Shown here: piece by piece, positions 12,736 to 28,208 of the stretch | How positions within the stretch are numbered: position 1 is the first letter of the stretch | How the letters are laid out: every line of letters starts with the position of its first letter | Source of the DNA: Nocardioides okcheonensis | GTDB lineage: Bacteria; Actinomycetota; Actinomycetes; Propionibacteriales; Nocardioidaceae | Length of the DNA: 64,000 nt | NCBI RefSeq assembly: GCF_020991065.1 | Contig: NZ_CP087710.1 | Coordinates: 868,001-932,000, forward strand | Reading direction: 5' to 3' | The notes under the pieces: generated by a model | What the model was told of the DNA's origin: nothing | What the model saw: the letters and a program-made list of their open reading frames with translations, nothing else | Database searches by the model: none | Position numbers and translations under genes: made by a program

Positions 12736-13653
12736 ATGATCGAGCTCACCGACACCACGTCGGCCCGGATCGCCGCGGAGTTCGTCCGCGCCCGCACCCG
12801 CGCCGGCAGCCCGGCGATGGGCATGGTGATGACCCTCGTGATCGTCGCCCCCGAGGAGGACGCGGCCGAGGCGATGCAGGCGGCCAAGCGTGCCTCGCGC
12901 GAGCACCCGTCGCGGGTGCTCGGCGTGATCCTCGGCGACGTCCGGGGCGCCGGCCACGTCAACGCGCAGGTCGGCAGCGGTGACGGGTGGGGCGGCGAGA
13001 CCGCGCTCATCCGGCTCAAGGGCGAGGTGGTCAAGCACGCCGAGTCCGTGGTGCTGCCGCTGCTGCTGCCCGACTCCCCGGTCGCGATCTGGTGGCCCAC
13101 GCAGGCCCCGCACGACCCCGCCGCCGACCCGCTCGGCGCCCTGGCCCAGCGCCGGATCACCGACGCCGCCGCCGTCTCCCGCGGCAAGTCGACGGCGATG
13201 CTGAACCAGTGCCGGTCCTACGCGCCCGGCAACACCGACCTGGCCTGGACCCGGCTGACGCCGTGGCGGGCGCTGCTGGCCGCCGCGCTCGACCAGCACC
13301 CGCTCAAGGTGACCCACGCCAAGGTCACGGCCGAGAAGATCAGCCCCAGCGCCGACCTGCTCGTCGCCTGGCTGTGCGACCGGCTCAAGGTCGTCGTCGA
13401 CCGCGCCACCTCCGCGGGACCGGGCATCACCGAGGTCACCCTGGAGACCAAGGAGGGGCCGATCCGGATCGCCCGCAACGACGGCCGGCTGGCGACCTTC
13501 ACCTCGCCGAACCGCCCCGACCGACCCGTCGCGCTCAAGCGGCGCGAGATCCCCGCACTGCTGTCCGAGGAGCTGCGCCGCCTCGACGAGGACGACACCT
13601 ACGCCGCGACCGCCGCCAAGCTGGTGCGGCTGCACGACGGGGCGAAGAAGTGA
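12736..13653 (+). CDS. opcA: Glucose-6-phosphate dehydrogenase assembly protein OpcA
   Basis: 305-residue OpcA, an actinobacterial/cyanobacterial protein that activates or helps assemble glucose-6-phosphate dehydrogenase. The VWWPTQAPHDPAADPLGALA-like segment (seen here as SPVAIWWPTQAP) and the RRITDAAA motif are typical. AAGGAG precedes the ATG by about 7 nt. It lies 25 nt after zwf and its stop overlaps the GTG of pgl (GTGA at 13650-13653). Confidence 0.95.
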   Translation: MIELTDTTSARIAAEFVRARTRAGSPAMGMVMTLVIVAPEEDAAEAMQAAKRASREHPSRVLGVILGDVRGAGHVNAQVGSGDGWGGETALIRLKGEVVKHAESVVLPLLLPDSPVAIWWPTQAPHDPAADPLGALAQRRITDAAAVSRGKSTAMLNQCRSYAPGNTDLAWTRLTPWRALLAAALDQHPLKVTHAKVTAEKISPSADLLVAWLCDRLKVVVDRATSAGPGITEVTLETKEGPIRIARNDGRLATFTSPNRPDRPVALKRREIPALLSEELRRLDEDDTYAATAAKLVRLHDGAKK

Positions 13654-14378
13654 GCGGCCCCGTGGAGATCCGCCGCCACGACGACGCCGACCTGCTCGTC
13701 GGCGACGTCGCCTCCGCCCTGCTCGACCGGCTCGAGGCCGCGCAGGCCCGCGGCGAGGTGCCGCAGGTCGGGCTGACCGGCGGCACCATCGCCGACGCGC
13801 TGCACCGCGAGCTCGCCCGCCGCGCCCAGGACTCGGCCGTCGACTGGTCGCGGGTGGTCTTCTGGTGGGGCGACGAGCGCTTCGTCGAGGCCGGCTCCCC
13901 CGACCGCAACGCACGCCAGGCACGCGAGGCACTGCTCGACCACGTCGACGTCGACCCCGCCCACGTCCACGAGGTTCCCGCCAGCGACGAGGTGGCGACC
14001 GCGGAGGACGCCGCCACGGCGTACTCCGAGGCGCTGCGCGACCACGGCGCGGGCTTCTTCGAGGTGCTGATGCTCGGCATCGGCCCCGACGGCCACTGCG
14101 CCTCGCTCTTCCCCGGCCACCCCGCCCTGCGAGCGACCGACGCCATCGCGGTCGCGGTCCACGACTCCCCCAAGCCGCCGCCCGACCGGGTCAGCCTGAC
14201 CTTCGAGGCGATGGAGCGCTGCCGCGCGGTCTGGTTCCTCGCCAGCGGCGAGGGCAAGGCCGACGCCGTCGCCCGCGCGCTCGCCGACGACGGGTCGGTC
14301 GAGGAGACCCCCGCCCGCGGCGTGCGCGGCGAGGAGACGATCTGGTGGCTCGACGAGGACGCCGCCTCCGCCCTCTGA
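13650..14378 (+). CDS. pgl: 6-phosphogluconolactonase
   Basis: 242-residue SOL/DevB-type lactonase, hydrolysing 6-phosphogluconolactone to 6-phosphogluconate. GLTGGTIADALHREL near residue 40 is the sugar-phosphate loop, VVFWWGDERFV and MLGIGPDGHCASLFPGHP are family motifs. GTG start is coupled to opcA. It is the last gene of the operon; three bases after its TGA the left 31-bp repeat array begins (14381). Confidence 0.95.
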   Translation: MSGPVEIRRHDDADLLVGDVASALLDRLEAAQARGEVPQVGLTGGTIADALHRELARRAQDSAVDWSRVVFWWGDERFVEAGSPDRNARQAREALLDHVDVDPAHVHEVPASDEVATAEDAATAYSEALRDHGAGFFEVLMLGIGPDGHCASLFPGHPALRATDAIAVAVHDSPKPPPDRVSLTFEAMERCRAVWFLASGEGKADAVARALADDGSVEETPARGVRGEETIWWLDEDAASAL

Positions 14379-14380
14379 CC

Positions 14381-14556
14381 GACCGGGCACTTCCTCGCGC
14401 TGGAACACGCCGAGCGGGCACTTCCTCGCGCTGGAACGCGCTGAGCGGGCACTTCCTCGCGCTGGAACGCGCTGAGCGGGCACTTCCTCGCGCTGGAACA
14501 CGCCGACCGGGCACTTCCTCGCGCTGGAACACGCCGACCGGGCACTTCCTCGCGCT
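14381..14556. repeat. Left array: six direct repeats, 31-bp period
   Basis: Six copies of a 21-bp core, beginning GACCGGGCAC (GAGCGGGCAC in copies 2-4) and ending TTCCTCGCGCT. Five 10-bp spacers (GGAACACGCC or GGAACGCGCT) separate them. Full units start at 14381, 14412, 14443, 14474 and 14505; the sixth core (14536-14556) is cut at CGCGCT, exactly where the nuclease gene ends, so the TAG stop of that gene (complement of 14555-14557) uses its last two bases. The array is the mirror image of 15601-15776. The period is close to three helical turns, so identical sites would face the same side of the DNA. Confidence 0.95.
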
Positions 14557-15544
14557 AGCGAGCCAGGTCGATGACTGTCGCCATGCGGGTGGCGTACGTC
14601 GCGCGTGCCCGCTCGAAGCCGCGGCCCAGACGGTCGCCGGCGAGGAGTTCCGGTCCGTACACGTCGATCTTCGTGAACACGTCCATGTCCCAGGCACGTC
14701 GGCTGCTCAGCCACTCGAGCCGGGTCTCGTCATCCTCCCGCTCGTCATCGCCGTGGAACTCCTCGCCGAAGTACTCGGCGCCGTACTTCACGTCGACACA
14801 TCCGACGTCGATGCGGAACCTGGGCGTGCCCAGGTCGTCGTGGACCCAGATCTGCGTCTGGGGTGGGACGGGGATGCCCGACTCGTGCCAGTGCAACCTC
14901 AGCGCGCTCTCCGGCTGTGACTCGGCACCGGTGTCGCCCAGTGGCGCGAGGTGGCGCAGCTGGACGACTCCTCGAAAACCCTTGAACCTGTCGACCTCGG
15001 CGACGAGCCGCTGCTGATCGACCCCGAGTCGCAGGAAGCCGTCGATCGCACCCAGGGCGTCGTACCTCCAGAGCAGCCGCCCGAGATCGCACGCCGTCCG
15101 GAGGCGCGTCGTCAGGCGCACGCCATCGATCTCCTCGATGTCACGAGCGAGCAGGCCGCGGACGCCGCTGCTGATGCCCGCACGGCGGATCCGGCTGCCC
15201 GACGAACTGAACAGGTCGAGCGACGGCATCTGGTGGATCGCGCTGCGCGGCAACGCGTCGACCCCGTGGATCCAGGCTGCGGTGCGGTCGACGACCACCA
15301 CGTGCGGCGGAGCGACGAGCCTGACGGCAGACACCCGGAGTCGGAACGAGTCCTGGACCTGCGCGGCCACGAACACCCCTCGGACCAGGGGCCGGACCAG
15401 TCCTCGTGCGACCAGCTTCGCGCGCAGGCTGGCTGGTACGCCGAGGAGGTCGGCCTCGGCGGACGAGAACACGCGGTCGATCGGGATCGGTGCGGACCCG
15501 TCGAGCAGGGCGACGTCGCGGCACCACGTGGGCAGCTTCGGCAT
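14555..15544 (-). CDS. AbiEi-type winged-helix plus DUF559/Vsr-like putative endonuclease
   Basis: 329 residues if started at ATG 15544; in-frame starts at 15556 and GTG 15598 exist, the last two bases from the right array. N-terminal part (about 10-60) resembles the AbiEi antitoxin winged helix (LLGVPASLRAKLVARGL, then VRGVFVAA); a central region follows (DRTAAWIHGVDALP, TTRLRTACDLGRLL). The C-terminal 110 residues fit the DUF559/very-short-patch-repair PD-(D/E)XK fold: ESALRLHWHESGIP, RIDVG, AEYFGEEFHG and a final WDMDVFTK strand, giving candidate acidic residues E, D and E. No partner toxin gene is next to it. It reads away from rbpA and against pgl, and sits alone between the arrays. Function unknown; nuclease activity is inferred. 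Confidence 0.7.
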   Translation of the reverse strand: MPKLPTWCRDVALLDGSAPIPIDRVFSSAEADLLGVPASLRAKLVARGLVRPLVRGVFVAAQVQDSFRLRVSAVRLVAPPHVVVVDRTAAWIHGVDALPRSAIHQMPSLDLFSSSGSRIRRAGISSGVRGLLARDIEEIDGVRLTTRLRTACDLGRLLWRYDALGAIDGFLRLGVDQQRLVAEVDRFKGFRGVVQLRHLAPLGDTGAESQPESALRLHWHESGIPVPPQTQIWVHDDLGTPRFRIDVGCVDVKYGAEYFGEEFHGDDEREDDETRLEWLSSRRAWDMDVFTKIDVYGPELLAGDRLGRGFERARATYATRMATVIDLAR

Positions 15545-15570
15545 GGTCCCGACCATGCCCGGTCCCGACC
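15541..15570. promoter_or_regulatory. Paired GGTCCCGACC sites at the 5' end of the nuclease gene
   Basis: GGTCCCGACC occurs at 15545-15554 and again at 15561-15570, 16 bp apart. The first is embedded in a longer perfect dyad, GCATGGTC-CC-GACCATGC (15541-15558). They overlap the candidate start codons of the nuclease gene, suggesting autoregulation by its winged helix. This is inference from symmetry. Confidence 0.4.
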
Positions 15571-15600
15571 GATCGTGCGCAGCGCTGTCCACAGCCACGC

Positions 15601-15776
15601 AGCGCGAGGAACTGCCCGGTCAGCACGATCCAGCGCGAGGAACTGCCCGGTCAGCACGATCCAGCGCGAGGAACTGCCCGGTCAGCACGATCCAGCGCGA
15701 GGAACTGCCCGGTCAGCACGATCCAGCGCGAGGAACTGCCCGGTCAGCAGGTTCCAGCGCGAGGAAGTGCCCGGTC
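15601..15776. repeat. Right array: six direct repeats, 31-bp period, inverted relative to left array
   Basis: Read on the minus strand, six 21-bp cores begin GACCGGGCAG (GACCGGGCAC in the outermost copy) and end TTCCTCGCGCT, with spacers GGATCGTGCT four times and GGAACCTGCT once at the outer edge. The plus-strand units start at 15601, 15632, 15663, 15694, 15725 and 15756. The innermost core (15601-15621) is truncated at CGCGCT next to the nuclease gene, matching the left array. The outer end runs into the rbpA stop codon (complement of 15775-15777). The outer unit resembles the left array more than its own neighbours do. Confidence 0.95.
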
Positions 15777-16137
15777 AGAAGATGATCTCGCCGGCCTTGC
15801 GGCGGCTGCGCAGGAGGGCGACGGCCTCGTCGAGGATGTCGGCCGCCTCCGTCTCGCTGCGACGCTCCTTCACGTAGGCGAGGTGCGTCTTGTAGGGCTC
15901 GATCTTCGGCGCCGGCGGCGGGTTCTCGCTGTCGAGGCTGGCCGGCAGGCCGCACTTGGGGCAGTCCCACGACTCCGGCACGGCGGCCTCGATCGCGAAG
16001 GTCACCACCGAGCGGTGGTCATGACTGCAGAAGTAGGTGACCGTCTGCCGGGGCGCGGCCTCGCCACGCTCGGCCTCACCCATCGGCCCCGCTCCGACCC
16101 GACTACCGCGGATCGCGTTTCCACCACCACCGGCCAC
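15775..16137 (-). CDS. rbpA: RNA polymerase-binding protein RbpA
   Basis: 120-residue RbpA, an actinobacterial general transcription factor that binds RNA polymerase and the principal sigma factor and stabilises the open promoter complex. It shows the N-terminal tail, the zinc-ribbon-like core (YFCSHDH then WDCPKCG), the basic linker and the C-terminal sigma-interaction helix (ADILDEAVALLRSRR). GTG 16137 has AAGGAG about 7 nt upstream. The stop codon TGA is shared with the first bases of the right repeat array, so the 3' end of the mRNA must run into the repeats. Confidence 0.93.
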   Translation of the reverse strand: MAGGGGNAIRGSRVGAGPMGEAERGEAAPRQTVTYFCSHDHRSVVTFAIEAAVPESWDCPKCGLPASLDSENPPPAPKIEPYKTHLAYVKERRSETEAADILDEAVALLRSRRKAGEIIF

Positions 16138-16175
16138 GAGGACTCCTTCGGCTCACTTCACAAGGGGGGAGTTGT

Positions 16176-16415
16176 TCAGTTGCCCTGGTAGGCCTTGAGC
16201 AGGCCCAGGGCGATGATGCAGGCAAACCAGATGATGCCGGTCCCGATCGTGAACCGGTCGAGGTTGCGCTCGGCCACCGACGATCCCCCCAGGCTGCTGG
16301 AGACGCCGCCGCCGAACATGTCGGACAGGCCGCCGCCACGCCCCTTGTGGAGGAGCACCAGCAGGATCATGATCGCGCTCGTCGCAACGAGCAGGATGGT
16401 GAAGAGCAGAATCAC
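16176..16415 (-). CDS. secG: Preprotein translocase subunit SecG
   Basis: 79 residues with two membrane helices flanking a Gly-rich loop (LLHKGRGGGLSDMFGG), the hallmark of SecG, which assists SecYE/SecA protein export. It follows tpiA after 44 nt and has its own TAGGCT box 7 nt before the GTG, so it may be transcribed alone as leaderless mRNA as well as from the glycolytic operon. Confidence 0.93.
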   Translation of the reverse strand: MILLFTILLVATSAIMILLVLLHKGRGGGLSDMFGGGVSSSLGGSSVAERNLDRFTIGTGIIWFACIIALGLLKAYQGN

Positions 16416-16422
16416 GATGCGA

Positions 16423-16428
16423 AGCCTA
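16423..16428 (-). promoter_or_regulatory. -10 box of secG, leaderless type
   Basis: TAGGCT on the minus strand, 7 nt before the secG GTG at 16415, in the short tpiA-secG gap. Confidence 0.5.
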
Positions 16429-16459
16429 CGTCACGACCTGGGGCGACCGGTGAGGGGCC

Positions 16460-17263
16460 TCACAGCACCGGCATGTCGCGGAAACGGCAGATTCCGCCGA
16501 ACTCCTCGACCTGCAGGCTGGCGCCACCGACGAGGCACCCGTCGACGTCCGGCTTCTCCATGATGCCGGCCACGTTGGCCGCCTTCACCGAGCCGCCGTA
16601 GAGGATCCGCAGGCCATCGGCGGCCCCGTCACCGTGCACCTCGCGCACCCGCTCGCGGATCGCCGCGCAGACCTCCTGCGCGTCGTCCGGGGTGGCGACC
16701 TCGCCCGTGCCGATCGCCCAGACCGGCTCGTAGGCCACCACGAGCCCGGCCACCTGCTCGGCGGTGAAGCCGTCCAGGGAGCCGTCGACCTGCGTCAGGG
16801 TGAAGGGGACGTGCTCCCCCGCCTGGCGCACGTCGAGGCCCTCGCCGACGCAGACGATCGGCGTCATGCCGGCCTGCAGCGTCTTGTGGGCCTTGGCGTT
16901 GACCAGCTCGTCGCTCTCCTGGTGGTACATCCGTCGCTCGGAGTGGCCCACGACGACGTAGGAGCAGCCGAGCTTGGCGAGCATGCCGGCGGAGATCTCA
17001 CCGGTGTAGGCGCCGCTGTCGTGCACCGAGACGTCCTGCGCGCCGTAGCCCAGCGACAGGCGGTCGCCGTCGACGAGCGTCTGCACCGACCGCAGGTCGG
17101 TGAACGGCGGCACCACGACGACCTCGACGGCACTGAAGTCGTGCCGCTTGTCCGACAGCGTCCACGCGAGCTTCTGGACCAGCACCACCGCTTCCTGGTG
17201 GTTGAGGTTCATCTTCCAGTTGCCCGCCATCAGCGGGGTGCGGGTGTTCTTCGTGGCAGCCAC
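16460..17263 (-). CDS. tpiA: Triose-phosphate isomerase
   Basis: 267 residues; interconverts dihydroxyacetone phosphate and glyceraldehyde 3-phosphate. Catalytic Lys17 (GNWKMN), His107 (VVVGHSERR) and Glu179 ([11 protein letters not shown]) are present. It starts 3 nt after the pgk stop, as third gene of gap-pgk-tpiA. Confidence 0.97.

Positions 17264-25187: not shown

Positions 25188-28208
<3,021 letters not shown>

Follow-up and report, generated by a model that had tools for sequence, protein, structure and literature searches.

In the systems formed by repetitive extragenic palindromes (REP) and REP-associated tyrosine transposases (RAYT), a single-copy gene adjoins its own repeat and dispersed extragenic copies of this repeat lie mostly in inverted pairs; excerpts of two reports describe largely vertical inheritance and a proposed co-evolution of gene and repeat (PMC3116915, PMC8266576). 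Two protein types are also relevant here: AbiEi proteins bind paired 23-bp inverted repeats (PMC7319586, excerpt), and the homing endonuclease I-Bth0305I reportedly forms a dimer on a target site of just under 60 bp (PMC3943268, excerpt). Here we describe a nuclease gene enclosed by two inverted repeat arrays in a 64,000-nucleotide stretch of Nocardioides okcheonensis (contig NZ_CP087710.1, positions 868,001 to 932,000, forward strand; hereafter the window), which belongs to a 4.47-Mb genome designated G000. We consider it fairly probable that gene and arrays together constitute a REPtron-like unit, in which the head of the protein would bind the repeat core, the nuclease domain would cut and repair would seed new inverted pairs.

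The nuclease gene and its inverted arrays

The locus comprises the following features, the neighbours being identified by Pfam (6-phosphogluconolactonase, E 1.1e-67; RbpA, E 1.5e-39).

13650..14378, + strand: pgl (6-phosphogluconolactonase, 242 aa, GTG start), left neighbour, convergent with rbpA
14381..14556, + strand: left array, cores GACCGGGCACTTCCTCGCGCT (or a GAG variant) with a 31-bp period, starting at 14381, 14412, 14443, 14474, 14505 and 14536
14555..15598, - strand: AbiEi-EDxHD nuclease gene, open frame of 347 aa
15585..15593, + strand: DnaA-box-like motif CTGTCCACA, between the 5'-side array and the start of the nuclease gene
15601..15776, - strand: right array, inverted, cores at 15601, 15632, 15663, 15694, 15725 and 15756
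15775..16137, - strand: rbpA, right neighbour

Each array has five 31-bp units and then, innermost, a 21-bp core that ends in CGCGCT; the arms, of 176 nt, are 87% complementary. This confirms the coordinates and mirror-image structure given in an earlier note made from the letters of this DNA. The same note had placed the array edges at stop codons, and the coordinates bear this out: the first left-array unit begins two bases after the pgl stop (TGA, 14376-14378), the rbpA stop (15775-15777) overlaps the final right-array core, and the nuclease stop (TAG, 14555-14557) shares two bases with the left array. Homologues align from codon 19 of the nuclease frame (ATG at 15544), which is therefore the probable conserved start.

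Recurrence of the nuclease with its flanking arrays

A homologue is found at E up to 1e-10 in 102 of 118 genomes of the genus. The best 80 of 113 homologous loci were named. Nocardioides and Marmoricola supply most of them; one is from Microlunatus and some are from metagenome genomes whose names stop at family level or above. Of the 80, 76 have sufficient flank for analysis. An inverted match between left and right flanks was above threshold in 73 of these 76 loci, compared with 1 of 151 same-length control blocks from the same loci. Because so few control blocks pass and the core recurs elsewhere in G000, the arrays of the window are not attributed to chance. Moreover, 71 loci score above the best control block, and tandem arrays are present on both sides in 53 of 76 loci versus 0/151 controls. 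The unit of nuclease and arrays that the earlier note had proposed thus recurs. Where a flank has a tandem signal, the period is 21, 22, 31, 32 or 42-44 in 120 of 123 cases, which corresponds to about two, three and four turns of DNA, i.e. to helically phased repeats.

The 80 loci fall into roughly 8 multi-locus and 20 single-locus sites, a number that is approximate since clustering on both flanks by tblastx gives 28 groups and clustering on either flank merges 74 loci. The pgl-rbpA site alone holds 24 of the 80, in both orientations (21 codirectional with rbpA, 3 opposite). No genome-wide count of convergent sites is claimed, as two GC-based callers of neighbour orientation disagree (49 versus 40 of 72 convergent) and miscall known pgl-rbpA loci. 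Beyond the genus, a match at E up to 1e-15 occurs in 49 of 296 Actinomycetota genomes. Among 29 such loci, the flanks match each other in inverted or direct orientation in 20 and fail to do so in 9, as counted on longer flanks than in the Nocardioidaceae set and with the Nocardioidaceae threshold, applied without a matched control; 20 further loci (three of them own-genome paralogues), judged by eye, comprise 11 with clear, 4 with weak and 5 without flank repeats.

Dispersed arrays and their construction

Allowing up to 3 mismatches, the core has 69 matches in G000, against 1 for the reversed pattern. Apart from those in the window, they make up two single matches and 11 multi-unit arrays. Both arms are present in 8 of these arrays, in + then - order around a centre of ~2-14 bp, and one arm in the other 3. 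All these matches of the first repeat family lie from 733 kb to 2834 kb, about half of the genome. In the window and at the 11 other loci, a crude caller placed 21 neighbouring gene ends. At eight of these the TGA stop shares its last two letters with the first GA of the unit, at eight the stop starts 5-15 nt ahead of the unit, and at five it is 36-104 nt away; the coding signal is poor for two calls, of which one belongs to the class with the shared GA. The insertion at gene 3' ends envisaged in the earlier note therefore stands as to location; entry of the gene into a new site was not directly seen.

The 10-bp spacers of one half-array are 93% identical to each other, whereas between half-arrays they are 52% identical, and 48% when left and right of the same locus are compared; the cores are 92% identical between half-arrays (20 half-arrays). 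This combination indicates that an arm lengthens through local duplication of 31 bp, its core being under constraint, and that whole arrays are not simply copied from the flanks of the nuclease gene. A CRISPR was rejected, the spacers being near-identical within a half-array and the nuclease being the only gene between arrays with homologues found, as was a structured RNA, with no Rfam match in 13000-17000 at gathering thresholds. Another tandem repeat of the window, at 25191-25288, has a 30-bp unit in ~3.3 copies.

A second family of repeats accompanies a second homologue in G000 (438071-438856; locus L193, 436500-440500), which is flanked by a double-palindrome element of 80-95 bp. About 31 near-full-length copies of this element, counted after merging overlapping rows by eye and including the two flanks, are present in G000 from 280 kb to 4384 kb, with 82-100% identity. 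A flank element taken from G407, a genome belonging to another taxonomic family, has 8 matches in that genome, whereas five further genomes of the genus of G407 have none; four of these matches are at a distance from the gene, and they are weak (E 5e-5 to 0.008). At 733 kb in G000 (locus L312), a first-family array abuts a second-family element, so that one intergenic region is common to both families.

Co-occurrence and covariation of arrays and nuclease

A relaxed array pattern is present in 20 of the 118 genus genomes. It was found in all 12 carriers of an orthologue (11 genomes above 60% identity, and G075 at 57%, partial) and in 8 of the 106 others (p = 1.5e-11), namely G016, G021, G043, G057, G074, G088, G091 and G116; with two or more matches, it was found in 5 of 106 non-carriers (p = 7e-13). 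The co-occurrence check suggested by the earlier note was thus positive. Pattern matches include the flanks of the gene itself, and matches away from the gene are listed for 11 of the 12 carriers (not G075); the pattern was drawn from the first family, so that other families, including those of homologues at 47-52% identity, are invisible to it. Orthologue genomes contain 2-57 matches, with at least 10 in ten of the twelve. Arrays with no nuclease gene nearby, which the note had counted against such a unit, are common, but they are found mainly in orthologue-bearing or close-kin genomes. G016, G021, G088 and G116 are such kin (rbpA 96-99% identical), with a different nuclease at pgl-rbpA; in two of them the array cores, on thinned rows, score 0.928 and 0.893 of consensus versus 0.978 in G000, a lower fidelity that is as expected of decay.

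The cores also vary with the nuclease. In eight genomes, the 9-nt variable part of the gene-less cores fits the flanks of the resident nuclease better than under shuffled labels (0 of 5000), 174 of 40320 genome assignments doing as well, in statistics that ignore genome relatedness. Among 14 close orthologues, the left-right flank match averages 48.8 at the same locus versus 22.8 across genomes. The term recognition arrays used in the earlier note needs correction to putative recognition arrays, recognition being suggested by this covariation.

These data bear on the view that the gene is a passive passenger in intergenic hot spots whose repeats are spread by something else. Gene-less arrays are indeed more numerous than genes, and a few genomes (G016, G074, G088, G116) have arrays without an orthologue; however, the two-sided repeats at nearly all loci, the strength of the co-occurrence, the covariation of the cores and the pairing of a second repeat family with a second nuclease make this view very improbable.

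Comparison of orthologous sites

One array site, the convergent intergenic region at 982525 of G000, was compared in 15 relatives with flanking DNA 84-96% identical. It is array-free (17-51 bp) in six (G016, G029, G073, G083, G088, G116). Arrays of 4+5 units in G000, 2+2 in G007, 4+2 in G095 (with CCTGCCCGTC) and 3+2, one degenerate, in G045 (with GTGCCCGTC) each have the core that flanks the nuclease of the same genome (in G007, a close variant). A core of the GTGCCCGTC type accompanies the close orthologue of Nocardioides zhouii. G021, whose pgl-rbpA nuclease belongs to another subfamily, has 3+3 units of GCCGAGTCGGCGCGAATGTCC, of which 19 of 20 bases match the flank of that nuclease, GCCGAGTCGGCGCGAGTGTC. 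In G044, G070, G112, G018 and G086 (loci L275, L282, L283, L284 and L285), the site has other sequence, partly repeats or palindromes (in G112, GGACACGTGTCCGAGATATCGCCC), possibly further repeat families.

The pgl-rbpA site was read in 30 genomes, picked as homologue-less, as having arrays without an orthologue, or as ten further members of the genus. Empty sites, which the earlier note had suggested looking for in relatives, were found in 12 of them: the site is short, the rbpA stop and the pgl match being 16-155 bp apart, and one (G035) has a small palindrome of the GCCGAGTCGGCGC kind, a related core. Seven have a 36-39% identical homologue convergent with rbpA, opposite to the orientation in the window, and 11 are longer or rearranged, six of them with no pgl match and one with a transposase-like gene as judged by eye. 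A locus conserved by vertical inheritance, which the note had also counted against its proposal, was thus found in part: of the genomes sampled, no fewer than 11 keep the gene at the pgl-rbpA position, which is what vertical descent would give, but relatives have empty sites.

Two further explanations can be weighed on these sites. First, the protein may be a free-standing homing endonuclease whose target is the paired inverted array, split by the gene, gene-less pairs being uncut or resistant targets for its homing. The predicted nuclease fold is nearest to I-Bth0305I, the gene takes the place, between the inner cores, of the 2-14 bp centre of gene-less arrays, many sites are occupied, pgl-rbpA in both orientations, and empty pgl-rbpA sites exist. 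However, intact gene-less arrays persist at many loci of gene-bearing genomes, each of the 11 orthologue genomes has a single match at E up to 1e-10, just 1 of the 12 empty sites has a palindrome of a related core, and homing accounts for the spread of the gene and not of the arrays; we regard this explanation as quite unlikely. Second, a host function may come first, the protein acting at the 3' ends of convergent genes as a roadblock terminator, insulator or nucleoid factor that has the arrays as its binding sites, with its nuclease domain serving turnover or repair. Arrays starting at or within ~15 nt of stops at 16 of 21 called gene ends, a phasing that suggests cooperative binding, the same locus in 11 genomes and the autoregulation by AbiEi relatives described in an excerpt (PMC7319586) are in keeping with this. 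Against it, close relatives differ at the single array site that was compared, cores vary with the resident protein, catalytic-type residues are invariant or nearly so in 70 homologues, and presence of the gene varies at pgl-rbpA; a host function as the primary role is therefore unlikely.

Properties of the protein and of the upstream region

In the structural model, residues 21-222 match AbiEi and residues 227-333 match I-Bth0305I/Vsr, the homing endonuclease being the nearest predicted fold to the nuclease domain. The AbiEi-like head was also detected by PADLOC (E 3.2e-7), and Pfam matches in 21 homologues are AbiEi_4, MTES_1575, AbiEi_1 and DUF559, with no transposase domain among them. Among 70 homologues, E230, E275, H282 and D290 are invariant and D264 is conserved in at least 90%, so that residue conservation points to an E, D, H, D series of the EDxHD type in order (E230, D264, H282, D290). 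No AbiEii nucleotidyltransferase was found adjacent to the gene, whose neighbours are pgl and rbpA. A profile search of solved structures gave no sequence match at E up to 1, and a 106-aa piece gave weak matches only, to enzymes of other kinds. In a viral fold library the top five were phage DUF559 proteins with partial alignments (TMq 0.20-0.29 among the 50 matches listed); a phage origin was rejected, as 0 of 59 candidate stretches of viral contigs encode a relative at E up to 1e-3. Since the paired inverted repeats bound by AbiEi proteins resemble the cores of the window in size and arrangement, the head should, by its fold, bind the core, and the nuclease domain presumably breaks DNA at or near cores.

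Of the 80 loci, 78 have TCCACA, on one strand or the other, between -260 and +60 relative to the start of the gene match. Random windows taken from these loci contain it in 11.0 on average (21 at most), and the 320 bp following the stop in 4. The gene-nearest copies, 39 per strand, have the consensus T(T/C)(A/G)TCCACAGG, a putative DnaA box. In 162-bp windows the motif occurs upstream in 71 of 78 loci versus 2 downstream and 6.1 at random, and in more remote homologues upstream in 22 of 47 versus 1 downstream (6.2 expected). A longer form lies exactly 41 bases ahead of the chosen start, as picked by script, in 20 of 52 instances. A search of the contig ends for oriC, meant as a test of the DnaA consensus, recognised no dnaA there. 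Together with phased iterons and a winged-helix protein, the motif resembles an iteron-plasmid origin.

Discussion

In the unit that we favour, the N-terminal winged-helix head would bind the ~21-bp core as a helically phased iteron and the C-terminal EDxHD/Vsr-fold domain would nick or cut at or near cores. Repair or replication of the broken DNA may then seed new inverted core pairs, preferably just past stops between convergent genes, with repair templating, cruciform resolution and end joining as candidate routes, and each arm would enlarge through local tandem duplication. The nuclease would remain single-copy and mostly vertically inherited while the repeats disperse; these would be re-templated as nuclease specificity drifts and decay upon loss of the nuclease. 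The promoter-side DnaA-box-like motif may link expression to replication.

Several observations weigh against this scheme. The reversed pattern used as a noise control matches 22 of 118 genomes, with 1-7 matches each, so that a count of one or two says little by itself. The flank of the same genome is the sole best fit to the gene-less cores in 3 of 8 genomes only (G086, G095, G029); G000 ties with an identical consensus and G070 is a near-tie, while G018 fits G095 better, G044 fits G070 better, and G045, whose gene-less cores are roughly half of its own type and half CCTCGCGCT, also fits a foreign flank better. Relatedness of the genomes could explain part of this covariation. The own left-right pair is the best in just 5 of 14 close orthologues and in 46 of 77 over all loci. 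Outside Nocardioidaceae matching flanks are found in only part of the homologues, and insertion of the gene into a new site was never directly caught.

A common actinobacterial protein family, annotated just by AbiEi and DUF559-like domains, is now tied to dispersed intergenic repeats. Many natural pairs of protein and DNA specificity become available for decoding recognition, and an independent system is at hand for asking why bacteria keep single-copy enzymes that breed intergenic repeats; the open question of the benefit of RAYTs to their hosts becomes testable by comparison. It is conceivable, at slightly less than even chances, that AbiEi-EDxHD nucleases drive a whole class of actinobacterial dispersed repeats, a second and independent invention of the REP/RAYT type with double-stranded phased iterons, re-templating and replication coupling through a DnaA box.

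Iteron-type plasmid origins have 21-22 bp iterons, a DnaA-like box and a gene for a winged-helix protein. Iterons, a DnaA-like motif and a winged-helix gene are also found here; however, the locus is chromosomal, has inverted arrays on both sides and encodes a nuclease domain. With AbiEi antitoxins of type IV toxin-antitoxin systems the protein shares an AbiEi-like head but differs in having no adjoining AbiEii partner, an added nuclease domain, and repeats both beside the gene and elsewhere. With EDxHD homing endonucleases such as I-Bth0305I and DUF559/Vsr-like nucleases it shares the predicted catalytic fold and, as suggested by conservation, the ordered E, D, H, D; here, in contrast, no intron or intein was seen, and the AbiEi-like head, flanking arrays and dispersed repeats are additional. 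The gene lies at the array centre while intact gene-less arrays coexist in G000.

The logic of REP/RAYT pairs with an unrelated protein, put forward in the earlier note, is supported. As in REP/REPIN-RAYT systems (TnpA-REP, 'REPtron'), the gene is flanked by its own repeat, here on both sides in nearly all loci, and dispersed extragenic copies form inverted pairs, most G000 arrays being two-armed. By contrast, RAYTs are HUH (Y1) tyrosine transposases, whereas an AbiEi head and an EDxHD/Vsr fold are predicted here; REPs are single hairpins with a GTAG tetranucleotide, whereas the arrays here are tandem and helically phased, and neither GTAG nor CGTC is present on either strand of the core GACCGGGCACTTCCTCGCGCT. 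The DnaA-like box at the gene and the occurrence in Actinomycetota are further differences; none of four actinobacterial names searched for was found in the text of a report on REP families (PMC3733652). In the open-licence PMC literature, as far as titles and the starts of abstracts go, no link of AbiEi/DUF559 nucleases to repeats was found among the matches listed. Since no known kind tested here combines an AbiEi-EDxHD enzyme with dispersed repeats, the system appears new in kind, on the basis of the open-licence literature, most subscription papers lying outside it. On the evidence so far, the nuclease and its arrays are not a RAYT system but seem, by analogy, to work like one.
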